From positions 1 through 38,800 of IMG/VR virus record IMGVR_UViG_3300042446_001059: DNA of 38,800 bases. One strand, 5' to 3'. This DNA comes from a virus. The number at the start of each line of letters is the position of its first letter. Positions within the stretch are counted from its first letter, which is position 1. The notes below the pieces were generated by a model. The model did no database searches, was not told the origin of the DNA, and was given only the letters and a program-made list of their open reading frames with translations. Below are positions 13,094 to 38,800 of the stretch, one piece after another. Made by a program: the position numbers and the translations under genes.

Positions 13094-13645
13094 ATGAAAC
13101 TGCCGACTCAATATCAATGGCTCGAAAAAATCGAGGTTCTGCCTAACAACATCGCAAACGCACTCGAATTTTTCGGTGTGCAAGAAGTTGTCGGGAAAGG
13201 CTCTAACAAAACAATCATCTCATGGCGCGATCTACTCAACCAAGCAGGCGTTACAATTGCTGGTTACTCTGATGATGACATCCCATGGTGCGGATTATTC
13301 GTCGCCATCGTGGTTTTCTTCCGAAAAGACAACCCGCTGGAGGTCGTAAAAAGTCCTCTTTGGGCGCGGAACTGGCTCAACTACGGCGTCAAAGCGAGCA
13401 CACCTGCTCTTGGTGACGTGCTCGTCTTTGGGCGTGACGGTGGCGGACACGTCGGGTTCTATATCGGCGAAGATGCGCTGTGCTACCACGTGCTCGGTGG
13501 CAACCAGTCAAACAAAGTCTGCATCACGCGCATCGCGAAATCACGCTGCCTTGGTATTCGTCGCCCGACTTACAATGTGCAGCCTGAATCGGCGAAGCGT
13601 TATTTCCTTGCCTCTACGGGAGGTGTGTCAAAAAACGAGGCGTAG
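13094..13645 (+). CDS. Endolysin-type cysteine peptidase (TIGR02594/CHAP-like)
   Basis: This 183-aa protein has the pattern of TIGR02594 family lysis peptidases. The nucleophile region is DDDIPWCGLFVAIVV (C66) and the catalytic histidine is in GGGHVGFYIGED (H119), followed by YHVLGGNQSNKVCI and RCLGIRRP. Such enzymes cleave peptide bonds in cell-wall peptidoglycan at the end of infection. No signal peptide is visible, so release should depend on a holin. The TM protein at 17414 is one candidate. The ATG is chosen because the upstream in-frame extension (from 13049) lies within the preceding gene. Confidence 0.82.
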   Translation: MKLPTQYQWLEKIEVLPNNIANALEFFGVQEVVGKGSNKTIISWRDLLNQAGVTIAGYSDDDIPWCGLFVAIVVFFRKDNPLEVVKSPLWARNWLNYGVKASTPALGDVLVFGRDGGGHVGFYIGEDALCYHVLGGNQSNKVCITRIAKSRCLGIRRPTYNVQPESAKRYFLASTGGVSKNEA

Positions 13646-13772
13646 CAAAATAATACTTGACGACCATCAACAAAGTGGCAGGATTCCCGCGTCATCTTGG
13701 TTGGTGGCAAGGTCTGCTCTCTTTCCGCCGTGACCGGGTTTTCCCGTAGCGAGAGAGGGCAGACCAACAAAT
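13646..13772 (+). other. Intergenic leader with large stem-loop (13712-13765)
   Basis: No gene is seen here. GGTCTGC (13712-13718) pairs with GCAGACC (13759-13765), and the stem extends inward with CTCT against AGAG. Inside lies a small hairpin CGGG-TTTT-CCCG. The structure ends 7 bases before the tRNA gene, so it may be a small structured RNA or a tRNA 5' leader. A possible -35 box TTGACG is at 13657-13662 but its -10 partner (AGGATT) is poor. Confidence 0.5.
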
Positions 13773-13846
13773 CGCAAGGTAGTGTAACGGTAACACGTTG
13801 GGTTCATACCCCTTCACTCCGGGTTCGAATCCCGGCCCTGCAACCA
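13773..13846 (+). tRNA. tRNA-Met(CAT), initiator-like
   Basis: This 74-nt cloverleaf has its CCA end encoded. The acceptor arm CGCAAGG/CCCTGCA has a C1-A72 mismatch, the hallmark of bacterial initiator tRNAs, plus an A5-C68 mismatch. The D arm is GTGT/ACAC with a 7-base loop. The anticodon loop TTCATAC gives CAT. The anticodon stem has three G-C pairs (GGG/CCC at 29-31/39-41), also an initiator feature, but T-T oppositions at the two outer positions. The T arm is CCGGG-TTCGAAT-CCCGG. The pair T11-A24 is elongator-like. The mismatches leave open a degenerate or specialised tRNA. Seven T follow one base after the CCA. Confidence 0.75.
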
Positions 13847-13878
13847 GTTTTTTTGTGTAGCTAGTCATCATGCATGCA

Positions 13879-13911
13879 CCCCGTCCGAGTCACTCCGGGC
13901 GGGGTGTTTTT
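13879..13911 (+). terminator. Terminator after tRNA gene
   Basis: CACCCCG pairs with CGGGGTG, and the inner part CCGAG/CTCCGG can extend the stem with one bulge. Five T follow. It separates the lysis/tRNA region from the baseplate genes, directly before repeated late element copy C. Confidence 0.75.
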
Positions 13912-13960: not shown

Positions 13961-14299
13961 ATGCGCGGGACTGACGCCAAGACAGGAAAAAGACTCACCG
14001 GGATTGACCATCTACGGCAGTCGATCCGTGACATCCTCACGACTCCGCTAGGCTCACGCGTGATGCGTCGCGACTACGGCTCGCGCCTGTTCGATCTGAT
14101 CGACAACCCACTCAACGACGTGACGCTCGTCGAAATTTTCGCCGCCACTGCCGAGGCTCTCATGACGTGGGAACCTCGCCTCAGAGTTACGCGCGTGCTG
14201 GCTGCATCGCTTGTGCCTGCCTCGCTCTCCATTGACCTCGAAGCAATCTACCTGCCGACCGGGGAACCCGTGTTCCTCGACGGAATCCAAATCGCATGA
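13961..14299 (+). CDS. Baseplate assembly protein W (gp25/P2 gpW family)
   Basis: This 112-aa wedge protein joins the baseplate to the tail. It starts MRGTDAKTGKRLTG and has the family core LRQSIRDILTTPLGSRVMRRDYGSRLF, LIDNP and WEPRLRVTRV. Length equals the P2 gpW class. The ATG at 13961 is chosen because the reading frame upstream crosses the terminator and repeated element, and homologues begin near this point. It ends in an ATGA overlap with gpJ. It opens the baseplate operon. Confidence 0.93.
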   Translation: MRGTDAKTGKRLTGIDHLRQSIRDILTTPLGSRVMRRDYGSRLFDLIDNPLNDVTLVEIFAATAEALMTWEPRLRVTRVLAASLVPASLSIDLEAIYLPTGEPVFLDGIQIA

Positions 14300-15192
14300 G
14301 TGCCTTTACACAGATCGACCTTTCCACGCTCCCAGCTCCCGACGTGATCGAGGAGCTGAACTTCGAGACCATCTTCGCCGCAATGCTCGCCGATCTCCAG
14401 GCGCGTGATCCCGTGTTCGACGCGCTCGTCGAATCCGATCCCGCCTACAAGATTCTCGAAGTCGCCGCGTATCGAGAGCTGCTCGTGCGCCAACGCGTCA
14501 ACGATGCAGCACGCGCCGTCATGCTCGCTTACGCAACTGGGACAGACCTCGACCAGCTTGGCGCGTTGTTCGGTGTTGAGCGTTTCGTTCTCGTCGAAGC
14601 CGATCCCGAGGCTGTGCCTCCGATCGCTGCCGTGTTGGAATCGGACACCGAGTTTCGCCGCCGCATTCAGCTCTCGTTAGAGGGCTTCTCTGTGGCTGGC
14701 CCCGAGGGTGCCTACATCTTCCATTCTCTCTCCGCGCACCCCGACGTGCTCGACGTTTCGGCTACGTCGCCCGACCCCGGCGAAGTCCTGATCTCCGTGC
14801 TCTCGCGCGTCGGCAATGGACAGCCCACGACGACGGTGCTGAATGCTGTCAATGCCGCGCTGAACGATGACGCAATCCGACCGCTCACCGACCTCGTGAC
14901 CGTGCAGGCTGCGACCAAGGTGGATTTCGCCGTCACCGCCGCGCTCTACACCTACCCCGGTCCTGACTCGTCGGTGGTGCTGACTGCCGCGACTGCCGCG
15001 CTTGACGCATATATCACGAGCGTTCGGAAAGTCGGATTCGACATCACGCTTTCTGGCATCTACGCCGCGCTGCACCAACCCGGTGTTCAGCGCGTGAGCC
15101 TCACCGCGCCGACGGCAAACATCACGATCAACGAGACCTCCTACGGTCACTGCACCGCAAAAACCATCACGCTTGCCGGCACCGATGAATGA
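14296..15192 (+). CDS. Baseplate assembly protein J (P2 gpJ-like)
   Basis: This 298-aa baseplate wedge subunit has the family features FETIFAAMLADLQ, ESDPAYKILEVAAYRELLVRQRVNDAA, ATGTDLDQLGALFGV, and GPEGAYIFHSLSAHPDVLDV, followed by SPDPGEVLISVLSRVGNG. It works with gpW and gpI around the central spike. It is coupled to gpW by ATGA and overlaps gpI by 8 bases. Length is like that of P2 gpJ (about 300 aa). Confidence 0.94.
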   Translation: MSAFTQIDLSTLPAPDVIEELNFETIFAAMLADLQARDPVFDALVESDPAYKILEVAAYRELLVRQRVNDAARAVMLAYATGTDLDQLGALFGVERFVLVEADPEAVPPIAAVLESDTEFRRRIQLSLEGFSVAGPEGAYIFHSLSAHPDVLDVSATSPDPGEVLISVLSRVGNGQPTTTVLNAVNAALNDDAIRPLTDLVTVQAATKVDFAVTAALYTYPGPDSSVVLTAATAALDAYITSVRKVGFDITLSGIYAALHQPGVQRVSLTAPTANITINETSYGHCTAKTITLAGTDE

Positions 15193-15723: not shown

Positions 15724-16983
15724 ATGCCCATTAACTTCATTCTCACCAACGCCGGAAAAGCCGCCATCATCGCGGCCAATAACACTGGAACGAATCCGGT
15801 GACGATCAACCGTGTTGGCGTTGGCTCCGCATCGTGGACGCCTACCGCCGCCGCGACTGCGCTCAATACCGAGATCAAGAAAATCACCGCTATCGGTGGC
15901 GCTGCCGTCGCCGCTGACACGATCCACGTCACAGCGTCCGACACATCGAGCGACGTCTATATCGTCAAAGAAATCGGGCTGTTCCTGACCGATGGAACGC
16001 TCCTGGCAGTCTACTCGCAGAGCACGGCGATCATCACGAAGGGCGCCGATACCGTGGCTCTCATCGCCGCCGACTTGGTCATCACCGGGCTTCCGGCTGG
16101 CAGCGTAACGGTCGGTGACATCGAGTTCGATTACCCACCCGCCACCGAGACCGTGAAGGGCGTCGCTGAAATCGCGACGACTGCCGAAGCGCAAGCTGGC
16201 ACCGATGACACGCGGATCATCACCCCGAAGAAGCTCCAAGACGTCACCGCCACCGAAACCCGCAAGGGAGTGGTGGAGCTGGCAACCGACGCCGAGGTGC
16301 AGACCGGAACCGACACTGCTCGTGCGGTCACTCCTGCCGGGCTGGCATCACTAACCGCAACGGCCTCTCGTGCTGGCCTCGTTGAACTCTCGACGGACTC
16401 GGAGACACAGAACGGGGCAGACGCTACGCGCGCCGTCACACCTGCATCGCTGCACTCCCGCACCGCTACCTCAACCCGAACCGGGCTTGTGGAGCTGGCG
16501 ACCGATACGGAGACACAGACAGGAACGGACGCGGCACGCGCGGTCACTCCTGCGTCGCTGGCAGCTCTCACCGCAAGCACGACCCGCCGTGGACTAGTGG
16601 AACTCGCTACAACAACCGAGACAGCGGACGGCACAGACACCGAACGCGCTGTCACTCCTCAAGGTCTTCGCCTTTCGCCTGGGCACGCTCGCGCGTGGGT
16701 GGTGTTCAACGGTAGTGGCACGGTCTCAATCATCGCCAGTCACAACGTCACGTCGATCACCGACCGTGGAACCGGGCGTTACACCGTCAATTTCACAACG
16801 GCGTTCGGATCGTCCGGCTATTGCTACGTGGCTGGGGCACGTCAAATCAACGACGTCTCTGACAGTTGCACTGTGTCGCCAAGGTTAGGCGATGCAAAGA
16901 GCACTACGGCAATGCAGATCACCGTCACCGAAGGATCAGACCTACAAGACTCCACCGAAATCTGCATCGCATTCTTCGCTTAA
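15724..16983 (+). CDS. Tail fibre protein (P2 gpH-like N-terminus, five shaft repeats)
   Basis: This 419-aa receptor-binding fibre has three parts. Residues 1-135 form a gpH-like baseplate attachment domain (FILTNAGKAAIIAA, VKEIGLF, GDIEFDYPP). Residues 140-319 are five 36-aa repeats with consensus ATxTRxGLVELATDxExQ then GTDxxRAVTPASL (tail-fibre repeat). Residues 325-419 form a C-terminal domain (AWVVFNGSGTVSIIASHNVTSITDRGTGRYTVNFTTA pattern) seen on many phage tail proteins, likely the receptor-binding tip. Repeat number may vary among relatives. The following small gene may be its assembly factor. Confidence 0.9.
   Translation: MPINFILTNAGKAAIIAANNTGTNPVTINRVGVGSASWTPTAAATALNTEIKKITAIGGAAVAADTIHVTASDTSSDVYIVKEIGLFLTDGTLLAVYSQSTAIITKGADTVALIAADLVITGLPAGSVTVGDIEFDYPPATETVKGVAEIATTAEAQAGTDDTRIITPKKLQDVTATETRKGVVELATDAEVQTGTDTARAVTPAGLASLTATASRAGLVELSTDSETQNGADATRAVTPASLHSRTATSTRTGLVELATDTETQTGTDAARAVTPASLAALTASTTRRGLVELATTTETADGTDTERAVTPQGLRLSPGHARAWVVFNGSGTVSIIASHNVTSITDRGTGRYTVNFTTAFGSSGYCYVAGARQINDVSDSCTVSPRLGDAKSTTAMQITVTEGSDLQDSTEICIAFFA
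16141..16680 (+). repeat. Five 108-bp coding tandem repeats in tail fibre gene
   Basis: Five in-frame units start at 16141, 16249, 16357, 16465 and 16573. Each encodes 36 residues with the core GLVELAT and RAVTP. Units 2 and 4 are the most alike, and the first (VKGVAEIATT, RIITP) the most divergent. They form the fibre shaft and allow length change by unequal recombination. Confidence 0.9.
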
Positions 16984-29831: not shown

Positions 29832-29883
29832 TGGTTGCGGGGGCCAGATTTGAACTGACGACCTTCAGGTTATGAGCCTGACG
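29832..29883 (-). other. attP: attP core: 3' part of an initiator tRNA gene
   Basis: Read on the - strand this 52-bp stretch is a bacterial tRNA-fMet from about position 25 to the CCA end: anticodon stem TCAGG/CCTGA around CTCATAA, then AGGTC and the T arm with TTCAAAT, and the end CCCCCGCAACCA. The 5' half is absent, so it is not a working tRNA. It lies 130 bp before the integrase ATG. Integration here would rebuild the host initiator tRNA gene. Confidence 0.88.
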
Positions 29884-29974
29884 GTCGTTGTCATCGCGAA
29901 CAAAAACCCGCAAAAACAATCTAACAAAAACAGCCGCTTAGCATATGGCAATTTCCGTGCCGTTTGCGCTAGTA

Positions 29975-30013
29975 TGCGGACATTCGACCCCAAATGCGGA
30001 CAATCTGCGGACA
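29975..30013 (+). repeat. Right arm sites, TGCGGACA repeats
   Basis: Three direct copies of TGCGGACA are at 29975-29982, 29995-30002 and 30006-30013. The last two have the same 11-bp spacing as the left pair. The final copy ends on the A of the integrase ATG, so binding could also repress integrase expression. Confidence 0.65.
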
Positions 30014-31137
30014 TGAAACTCACCAAAAGAACCACCCAAACAGCTCCCGTCGGCACCCACTGGGACGATCAACTCCCCGGCTTCGGACTCCGCGTTCAGG
30101 AGAGTGGACGGCGTTCATTCGTCGTGCGCTACCGCACCGCGAGCGGAACGGATCGGCTCATGACACTTGGCACCGTGGAGGAATTACACCCCGAGGCCGC
30201 GCGCGAAATGGCACGTCAAGCACGGGCAGACGTTCGCCACGGTAAAGACCCCGGCGCGGATCGTAAGGCGCTAAGACAGTCACCCAAGCTCGCCGAGCTG
30301 CGAGACAGACACCTTGCCGAGCACGCGGCACAGAAAAAATCCGGCACAGCTCGCAACTACGAAATCCACTGGCGTCTGCACATCATTCCCGCTCTCGGAA
30401 ATCCTGCCGTCGCCGAGATCACCGAATCCGACCTGCTCGTGATCCGTCGGCGCATGGCAGCGCACCCGGTGAACTGCAACCGGGTGTTCGAGACACTCGC
30501 CAAAGCCTTCGACCTCGCCGAGCGTTGGGGATGGCGACCAGCCAACTCGAACCCGTGCCGCTGGATCGAGTCGTTCCCGGAATCCAAGGTCGAGCGCATC
30601 CTCGAACCTGCCGAGATTGCTGCCGTGTGGCGTGAGATTGACAGTCCCGACATCCTGCCGAGCGCATCCGCGCTGTTCCGCTTGCTCATGCTGACCGGGT
30701 GCCGATCCGGCGAATGGCGCACCGCGCTTTGGTCGTGGATCGACTTCGAAAATTCCGTCCTGCGATTGCCGGACTCGAAGACGGGCGCGAAGGTCGTGCC
30801 GCTGGCACCCGACGCCGTCGCAATCCTTCGAGCACTGCCGCGAACGTCGATCTACGTTCTCCCAGGCACGACAGGCGGACCAATCGGCGGACACCGGAAA
30901 ATCTGGCTGCGGATTCTCGCTCGTGCAGGCGTCACCGACCGCGTTCGCATCCACGACTTGCGGCACACAGTCGGGAGTTACGCTCACCGCGCCGGAGCAT
31001 CACAGCGCGAAGTCGCCGACCTGCTCGGACACAAGCAGATGGCTACGGCCGCTCGATACATTCACGGCCCCGAGTCTGAAAAACACAGCAACGCCGCGCG
31101 TGCATCGCAAGCAATTCTGAAACTTGTCAGAAAATAA
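30013..31137 (+). CDS. int: Tyrosine-family integrase
   Basis: This 374-aa site-specific recombinase inserts and excises the phage at attP. An N-terminal arm-binding domain (LPGFGLRVQESGRRSFVVRYR, about residues 20-90) is followed by a core-binding SAM-like domain (90-190) and the catalytic domain with R231 (TGCRSGEW), K256 (DSKTG), H314 and R317 (IHDLRHT), H340 (LLGHKQ) and nucleophile Y349 (ARYIHG). All catalytic residues are present. The ATG at 30013 matches the usual start of this P4-like family. The upstream extension runs through the attachment site. Confidence 0.96.
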   Translation: MKLTKRTTQTAPVGTHWDDQLPGFGLRVQESGRRSFVVRYRTASGTDRLMTLGTVEELHPEAAREMARQARADVRHGKDPGADRKALRQSPKLAELRDRHLAEHAAQKKSGTARNYEIHWRLHIIPALGNPAVAEITESDLLVIRRRMAAHPVNCNRVFETLAKAFDLAERWGWRPANSNPCRWIESFPESKVERILEPAEIAAVWREIDSPDILPSASALFRLLMLTGCRSGEWRTALWSWIDFENSVLRLPDSKTGAKVVPLAPDAVAILRALPRTSIYVLPGTTGGPIGGHRKIWLRILARAGVTDRVRIHDLRHTVGSYAHRAGASQREVADLLGHKQMATAARYIHGPESEKHSNAARASQAILKLVRK

Positions 31138-31249
31138 TTGCGTGCTGCGACCCTTGTATTTCCTTGATTTGTGAAAAAAGACGAAAAAAATCATTGCACA
31201 AGTGCAATGTTTTTCTATACTTCCCCCGCAACCAACCAACCAACCAACC
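31138..31249 (+). promoter_or_regulatory. Early promoter with palindromic operator
   Basis: The -35 box TTGCAC (31194-31199), a 16-bp spacer and the -10 box TATACT (31216-31221) form a plausible sigma-70 promoter. The -35 box lies within the palindrome ATTGCACAAGTGCAAT (31193-31208; 7-bp arms, 2-bp centre), so a bound dimer would block RNA polymerase. The leader ends ACCAACCAACCAACCA at the ATG at 31250. The small HTH protein at 32253 is a candidate ligand. Confidence 0.75.
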
Positions 31250-31432
31250 ATGACAACAAAACTACGCTCCATCTGGACTGCCAAAGTCGGCGACAAAGTC
31301 CACAGCTACGCCCCGAAGCACTACAACGCACGCGGCGAAATCACCGAGTTCCTCACGGGTTCTCGCGTCAATGTCCGGCTCCTGTCCGGGGAAACCGTCA
31401 CCGTCGTTCTGACCGACCTCGAATTGCTCTAA
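31250..31432 (+). CDS. Small beta-barrel-like protein
   Basis: This 60-aa protein, IWTAKVGDKVHSYAPKHYNARGEITEFLTG then SRVNVRLLSGETVTVVLTDLELL, reads as a compact SH3/KOW-like barrel of about five strands. It is the first gene behind the operator-promoter and should be well expressed early. The start is the ATG after the ACCA repeat. An earlier in-frame ATG at 31202 falls inside the promoter. No function can be assigned. Confidence 0.7.
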   Translation: MTTKLRSIWTAKVGDKVHSYAPKHYNARGEITEFLTGSRVNVRLLSGETVTVVLTDLELL

Positions 31433-37920: not shown

Positions 37921-37949
37921 TTTTCGCAACTTTTTTGCAATTTGGTTTC

Positions 37950-38543
37950 ATGAACAAACTCACTCAAAAATCAACCTCCGACCTGATCCCGTTCGCGAGC
38001 AATGCCAAGCTTCACAACGAGGGGCAGGTGGCAGCTATTGCCGCGTCGATCCGCGAGTTCGGATTCAACAATCCCGTGTTGGTCGCGCCCGATGGAACGA
38101 TCATCGCCGGGCATGGTCGCGTGTTGGCAGCTCGCAAGCTCGGACTGGAATCCGTTCCGGTCATCGTGCTGGCTCACCTGTCCGAGTCACAGCGACGCGC
38201 CTACGTCATTGCCGACAATCGCCTTGCCGAGACCGGGGGCGGTTGGGATTGGGAAATGCTCCGCGCCGAGCTGGACCACATCGGCGAGTTTGGCGACATC
38301 GATTTGACCCTCACCGGGTTCGACCCCGAAGACCTTCCGTCCGGTGACATGGAGTCATTCGAGATCGACGGCGACGAGCAACGCGGCGGGACTGACACAA
38401 GCTACCTCTCGTTCGGTGATCGCAAGGTGCCGCTCGACGGCGACGAACTCACGGGCCTCATGGCACTGCTCGACAACCACATGGCGAAGACCGGGAGCCC
38501 GTTCGGTTTCGCCTCAGCTCTGATCCGTAAATGCTCGATTTGA
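37950..38543 (+). CDS. ParB-like N-terminal domain protein
   Basis: This 197-aa protein has a ParB/Srx domain: LIPFASNAKLHNEGQVAAIAASIREFGFNNPV, then IIAGHGRVLAARKLGLESVPVI and RRAYVIADNRLAETGGWDW-like text (about residues 10-110). The C-terminal part (YLSFGDRKVPLDGDELTGLMALLD) is a common extension of phage ParB-like proteins. No methyltransferase is attached, unlike the next gene. The centromere-binding HTH of true partition ParB is also absent. The ATG at 37950 is preferred over an upstream TTG. Its stop lies inside the next gene, an overlap of 13 bases. Confidence 0.85.
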   Translation: MNKLTQKSTSDLIPFASNAKLHNEGQVAAIAASIREFGFNNPVLVAPDGTIIAGHGRVLAARKLGLESVPVIVLAHLSESQRRAYVIADNRLAETGGGWDWEMLRAELDHIGEFGDIDLTLTGFDPEDLPSGDMESFEIDGDEQRGGTDTSYLSFGDRKVPLDGDELTGLMALLDNHMAKTGSPFGFASALIRKCSI

Positions 38544-38800
38544 ACCATCCACTCGATGCGCTGAAAGGCGCCGACTATAACCCGCGCAAGATTGACCCTA
38601 GCGCGATCGAACGACTGTGCGAGTCGATCCGCGAGATTGGCGTTTGCAAGCCGATCATCGTGCGGGGCAGCATCATCGTCGCAGGTCACCAACGAACCCG
38701 CGCACTTCGTGCCATGGGCGTGACGCACGCTCCCGTGTTCCAGCTCTCGTCTGACACGACCGTCTACGACGAGGTGCGATTCAACCAGCTCCACAACGGC
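38531..38800 (+). CDS. ParB-methyltransferase fusion, start (runs off the end)
   Basis: The ATG at 38531 begins MLDLNHPLDALKGADYNPRK and continues out of the window. The rest is the gene at 1-1370, because bases 38553-38800 repeat 1-248. This copy reads GSIIVAG where the left copy reads GSTIVAG, owing to T instead of C at 38673. The start overlaps the preceding ParB-like gene by 13 bases. Confidence 0.85.
   Translation, partial: MLDLNHPLDALKGADYNPRKIDPSAIERLCESIREIGVCKPIIVRGSIIVAGHQRTRALRAMGVTHAPVFQLSSDTTVYDEVRFNQLHNG
38553..38800 (+). repeat. Terminal overlap, right copy
   Basis: This is the right copy of the 248-bp overlap, with the single T/C difference at 38673. It belongs to the same gene as the left end and should be counted once. 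Confidence 0.9.

Follow-up and report, generated by a model that had tools for sequence, protein, structure and literature searches.

Phage tRNAs are usually discussed as elongators, and bacterial initiator tRNAs are marked by a purine 11-pyrimidine 24 pair and by three G-C pairs in the anticodon stem. Using the E. coli initiator tRNA as a query, we found matches in 345 cultured-phage records, 293 of them over most of the query length, and many of the matching records are annotated as tRNA-Met. No paper was found under "phage-encoded initiator tRNA" or close variants of that phrase. Single tRNA-fMet(CAU) or tRNA-Met(CAU) genes are reported in the phiLM21-like prophages of Sinorhizobium meliloti (PMC12429752). 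Phage initiator-like tRNAs are common and already known and, given the cultured-phage matches and the published Sinorhizobium prophage tRNA-fMet, the tRNA described here adds to a known group. Three further systems bear on this locus. In actinobacteriophages, tRNA-dependent lysogeny requires an attachment core too short to restore the host tRNA, 8 to 17 bp in the cases listed (PMC10865867). VapC nucleases cleave tRNA-fMet between A38 and C39 (PMC4105405), a VapC from Bosea, an alphaproteobacterium, also acts on tRNA-fMet (PMC8522696), and phage tRNAs with altered anticodon loops are proposed to evade such nucleases. According to the latter study, phages generally avoid encoding the tRNA-fMet targeted by VapC in S. 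flexneri (PMC10264068). Endonuclease genes near phage tRNAs are also a known pattern (PMC13096335).

The DNA analyzed here, which we call the window, comprises 38,800 bases and is a virus record in IMG/VR. Its first 248 bases (1-248) recur at 38553-38800 with at least one difference, and this direct terminal repeat probably reflects a complete circular phage genome. At this junction are a ParB-like gene (37935-38543) and the beginning of the gene after it, which is part of the repeat. The window encodes portal, capsid/protease, sheath, tape measure, baseplate V, gp25, and J proteins and a tyrosine integrase, and it is a temperate phage with a contractile tail. Internal direct repeats, about 68 to 70% alike, were seen in a probable tail-fibre gene (16245-16659) when the window was compared with the related contig L207.

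One tRNA gene (13773-13846, + strand) lies in the late structural region, on the same strand as the two late structural genes that flank it. Upstream is a CHAP-like hydrolase (13094-13645, +), assigned by PHROG to baseplate hub/tail lysozyme and below the cut-off for Pfam CHAP; downstream are a gp25-like baseplate wedge protein (13961-14299, +) and a baseplate J-like protein (14296-15192, +). A probable intrinsic terminator, with a 12-pair stem and then TTTTTG, follows the tRNA (13876-13907, +), and by inspection similar G+C-rich hairpins lie 3' of the tRNA 3' half in the relatives L002 and L003. From its late position, the shared strand, and the terminator that follows it, the tRNA is probably expressed late in the lytic cycle.

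ARAGORN called a tRNA-Met(CAT) at exactly these coordinates. The gene scored 49.9 bits against Rfam RF00005, above the gathering cut-off of 29; the host fMet tRNA scored higher, at 59.4. We then read the structure pair by pair. The acceptor stem has a C1·A72 mismatch, G2-C71, C3-G70, A4-U69, an A5·C68 mismatch, G6-C67, and G7-C66, and the D stem has G10-C25, U11-A24, G12-C23, and U13-A22. The anticodon stem begins with two mismatches, U27·U43 and U28·U42, and continues with G29-C41, G30-C40, and G31-C39 below a UUCAUAC loop. Every pair of the T stem is formed, and A73 and CCA are encoded. The original prediction had listed a CAT anticodon, C1-A72, three G-C pairs, and an encoded CCA, along with mismatches at 5-68, 27-43, and 28-42, and the reading agrees with all of these details. 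The stand-alone fold of the tRNA is poor.

How far this makes the tRNA an initiator depends on which mark is considered. Like bacterial tRNA-fMet, it has a CAU anticodon, A73, and an encoded CCA, it lacks a Watson-Crick pair at 1:72 (C1·A72), and it has three consecutive G-C pairs at 29-31/39-41. The purine 11-pyrimidine 24 pair is absent, and U11-A24 is of the elongator type. In the phage loci fetched here, 1:72 was unpaired in 74 of 91 CAT tRNAs with three G-C pairs and in 15 of 363 non-CAT tRNAs. The three-G-C set was picked by a sequence pattern blind to 1:72, and therefore this association is not built in. Elongator-type CAT tRNAs of cellular genomes have a 1:72 pair. Position 11-24 is A-U in 76 of 101 comparable phage tRNAs and U-A in only 3. 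The likely host's own fMet tRNA has only two of the G-C pairs, together with A29-U41; L003 and L004 have fewer than three in the anticodon stem, and the D arm of the L004 tRNA is that of an alphaproteobacterial elongator-type CAT tRNA (L358). Because of U11-A24 and these features of L003 and L004, we label the window tRNA initiator-like rather than a proven initiator. In this sense the predicted initiator-like character is borne out by C1·A72, by the three G-C pairs, and by relatives that keep C1·A72.

These relatives were found through the neighboring baseplate J gene. L003 and L004 each carry one CAT tRNA upstream of J, both with C1·A72 and A73. C1·A72, A73, and CAU are also kept in Stenotrophomonas phage RAS14. 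Pairwise tRNA identity is 51 to 74% across the window, L003, L004, and RAS14 and just 51 to 61% among the first three. Thus, C1·A72 has outlived much sequence change, and the acceptor mark is conserved. The tRNA-Met of RAS14 is the nearest annotated phage tRNA, with 74% identity to the window tRNA over all 74 nt; identity falls to 62% for the host-type fMet tRNA and to 47 to 58% for elongator or Ile2 CAT tRNAs. An identity of 62% to the full matching host fMet gene agrees with the earlier statement that this tRNA was not copied from the host piece in attP. An elongator pattern search in genomes G586 and G568 gave no match. The L207 contig, 99.7% identical to the window (17 mismatches in 5909 bp), carries an identical tRNA, although the comparison is short. 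In L002, the 5' half of the tRNA is lost, and inspection by eye gave no convincing second half-tRNA (5' half) there.

Directly 5' of the tRNA lies a structured leader RNA (13656-13767, +). The roughly 110 nt before the tRNA form an unusually stable fold, with a z-score of -5.0 for 13646-13772. A long hairpin at 13711-13765 keeps the invariant elements UUCCGCCGWGAC...UAGCGAG, while its stem and apical tetraloop (GUAA, GAAA, UUCG, or UUUU) vary, and UGGUUGGU is conserved 5' of the hairpin. L002, L003, and L004 all retain the leader, whereas their adjoining hydrolase genes differ. When the four sequences are aligned, standard pairs fill 95.4% of pair cells, and in seven pairs both partners change; the alignment is small, however, and also supplied the structure, which is favored thereby. 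The covariation score was 0.395 against a shuffled mean of 0.192, which none of 500 shuffles reached, and the paired share dropped to 44 to 49% when the structure was slid. A covariance model (R1) found the leader only in these four phages among 86 sources. No Rfam family matched at the gathering threshold (a mir-4677 match was far under its cut-off), a sequence-pattern search returned only this lineage besides chance-like matches without a nearby tRNA, and no phage record matched most of a leader-tRNA query. That L002 keeps the leader although its tRNA is incomplete favors some independence of the leader from the tRNA. Possible roles are processing or protection of the tRNA precursor or a separate small RNA.

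Two relatives carry an additional gene at this site. The HNH-like ORFs of L002 (1458-1860; 123 aa) and L003 (4750-5146; 122 aa), 52% identical to each other, end right against the T arm and acceptor 3' strand of a tRNA. In L003 a complete tRNA lies upstream of the ORF; in L002 none was found. Neither ORF had a Pfam match, but both match proteins of Erwinia and Salmonella phages that are annotated as HNH endonucleases and whose genes adjoin or overlap tRNA genes. In IMG/VR, their only relatives were L003's own contig and one weak match. The simplest reading of this arrangement would be homing-type insertion into the tRNA site.

The original prediction also held that the phage integrates into an initiator tRNA gene. 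The attP (29832-29883, - strand) consists of 52 nt of a host initiator tRNA gene, beginning in the anticodon stem and including CCA. The adjoining tyrosine integrase (29872-31137, +) probably starts at an ATG at 30013, judging from its L004 relative; the ORF as listed begins inside attP (29872-30013). After the integrase, a CAACC-type repeat run (31223-31250) lies right before an ATG and 3' of a TTGCAC...GTGCAA inverted repeat. A 49-nt attP core was exact in 10 of 289 alphaproteobacterial genomes, a class picked from a named locus (L236, Novosphingobium mathurense). Verrucomicrobiota were also considered as hosts, and the core was found in none of 388 genomes with up to one mismatch allowed. 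Because the core is exact in alphaproteobacterial genomes and absent from Verrucomicrobiota genomes, the host is probably an alphaproteobacterium. The full 52-nt sequence was exact in seven IMG/VR contigs. Four contigs (G694, G696, G697, and G699) have a full-length tRNA at one end, that of G696 being an fMet gene; this is the pattern expected where integration has restored the gene at the edge of a prophage. Downstream of CCA, the window attP shares TAAATCAATGACTTA with the fMet flank of genome G568 (L293), and the L004 attP shares TCAATGACTTA with the same flank; this shared flank may serve as a lead to the host group. In genome G576, two copies of the fMet 3' half lie 17 kb apart on one contig (G576:C35:18553 and 35381) and are possibly the ends of an integrated element.

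These data allowed us to weigh what the phage tRNA might be for. It had been suggested that the tRNA covers for disruption of the host gene, as in tRNA-dependent lysogeny, where the phage tRNA would take over from a host fMet gene broken by integration. Actinobacteriophages are known to use this mechanism (PMC10865867), the phage tRNA has the same anticodon as the targeted gene, and the pairing of fMet integration with a CAU tRNA recurs in the L004 phage, which shares the exact attP, has a 76%-identical integrase, and carries its own CAT tRNA. However, the window core is 52 nt, whereas known cases share 8 to 17 bp (PMC10865867). Since this core spans the anticodon stem to CCA and matches genomes exactly, the host fMet gene should be rebuilt upon integration. 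No second tRNA was found in three 42- to 52-kb contigs with the same attP (G695, G696, and G699), which are possibly incomplete, and a late operon is an odd place for a gene needed by the lysogen. On these points, and above all because the defining short core is missing, we do not uphold the suggestion and regard tRNA-dependent lysogeny as very improbable here. A main role as a target at which HNH genes land or home, or a structural role in a longer noncoding RNA whose working part is the upstream hairpin, would account for the HNH ORFs that end against the tRNA 3' half in L002 and L003, for the related genes that abut tRNA genes in Erwinia and Salmonella phages, and for the leader kept in L002. 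In the window and L004, however, the tRNA is complete and the site is free of HNH genes, and initiator-type marks would be superfluous in a simple landing site. We consider this explanation unlikely.

Instead, starting from the gene as observed, its structure, its conserved C1·A72, its genomic position, and the covariation of its leader, we propose that the phage encodes an initiator-type tRNA(CAU), made late, that supplements or replaces the host initiator tRNA and plausibly escapes nucleases; we rate the chance that this is right as about even. A start tRNA would hardly be carried to supply codons, except where initiation is the limiting step. The tRNA would be cargo of the late structural region, with a structured leader RNA and its own terminator, and would be made late in the lytic cycle, charged by the host methionyl-tRNA synthetase, formylated, as the unpaired 1:72 suggests, and used at start codons. 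It may plausibly be retained because, at the A38/C39 bond cut by fMet-cleaving VapC-type nucleases, its anticodon loop and stem are unlike those of the host tRNA. The window and L003 tRNAs have C/C at positions 38/39 and the L004 tRNA has A/G, against A/C in the matching host fMet tRNA, and the window tRNA possibly resists host nucleases that cut there. PIN-domain proteins, which may or may not target tRNA-fMet, occur in five of eight genomes with the exact attB. Nuclease escape is no general rule for such tRNAs, since the normal CUCAUAA loop is found in 89 of 103 comparable phage initiator-like tRNAs. The three stem mismatches and the poor fold of the tRNA on its own may indicate that its function is weak or decaying, and U11-A24 and the loss of the tRNA 5' half in L002 count against our proposal. 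The mismatches at 5-68, 27-43, and 28-42, the Rfam score below that of the host fMet tRNA, and the half-tRNA remnants in L002 and L003 would also fit a decaying or neutral relic kept passively in a mobile cargo cassette. Yet C1·A72, A73, CAU, and the T arm are kept across diverged relatives, and none of the 17 differences from L207 falls in the tRNA, though that comparison is short; a relic is therefore a less probable explanation, but one to be taken seriously. A more elaborate version of the nuclease-escape proposal, which we put forward only as a long shot, is a lineage-specific anti-defense island, in which the leader would drive or protect a late VapC-proof initiator tRNA that sustains initiation when host fMet tRNA is cut, and the HNH homing gene would spread or reshuffle the tRNA between phages.

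If a conserved initiator-type tRNA is indeed at work, some phages would provide for the start of translation on their own, and nuclease escape can be tested directly through the altered positions 38/39. What is new here is the conserved, covarying leader RNA and, in two relatives, the HNH gene that ends against the remaining 3' half of a tRNA. The leader, a small new structured RNA open to testing, is the least expected part of the finding.

The known systems resemble this locus in part. The RAS14 tRNA-Met(CAT) (OP752703) shares C1·A72, the GGG/CCC anticodon stem, the UUCAUAC loop, U11-A24, and the encoded CCA; however, it lies in a four-tRNA group of a 320-kb phage and lacks the 5-68, 27-43, and 28-42 mismatches. 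The phiLM21-like prophages, temperate phages of an alphaproteobacterium, likewise carry a single CAU tRNA gene but, among the entries considered, are integrated in Lys, Ser, Leu, or Pro tRNA genes and not in fMet (PMC12429752). Nuclease-evading phage tRNAs have an anticodon-loop change at the cut site, as does the window tRNA, whose resistance is predicted from sequence (PMC10264068). SegB-type homing endonucleases are encoded beside phage tRNA genes as in L002 and L003, whereas in these two relatives alone an HNH-type protein abuts a tRNA 3'-half remnant, an arrangement read from the genes (PMC13096335). Actinobacteriophage tRNA-dependent lysogeny combines tRNA-gene integration with a phage tRNA of the same anticodon, as the window does, but with a short core that leaves the host tRNA unrestored, in contrast to the 52-nt core found here (PMC10865867).
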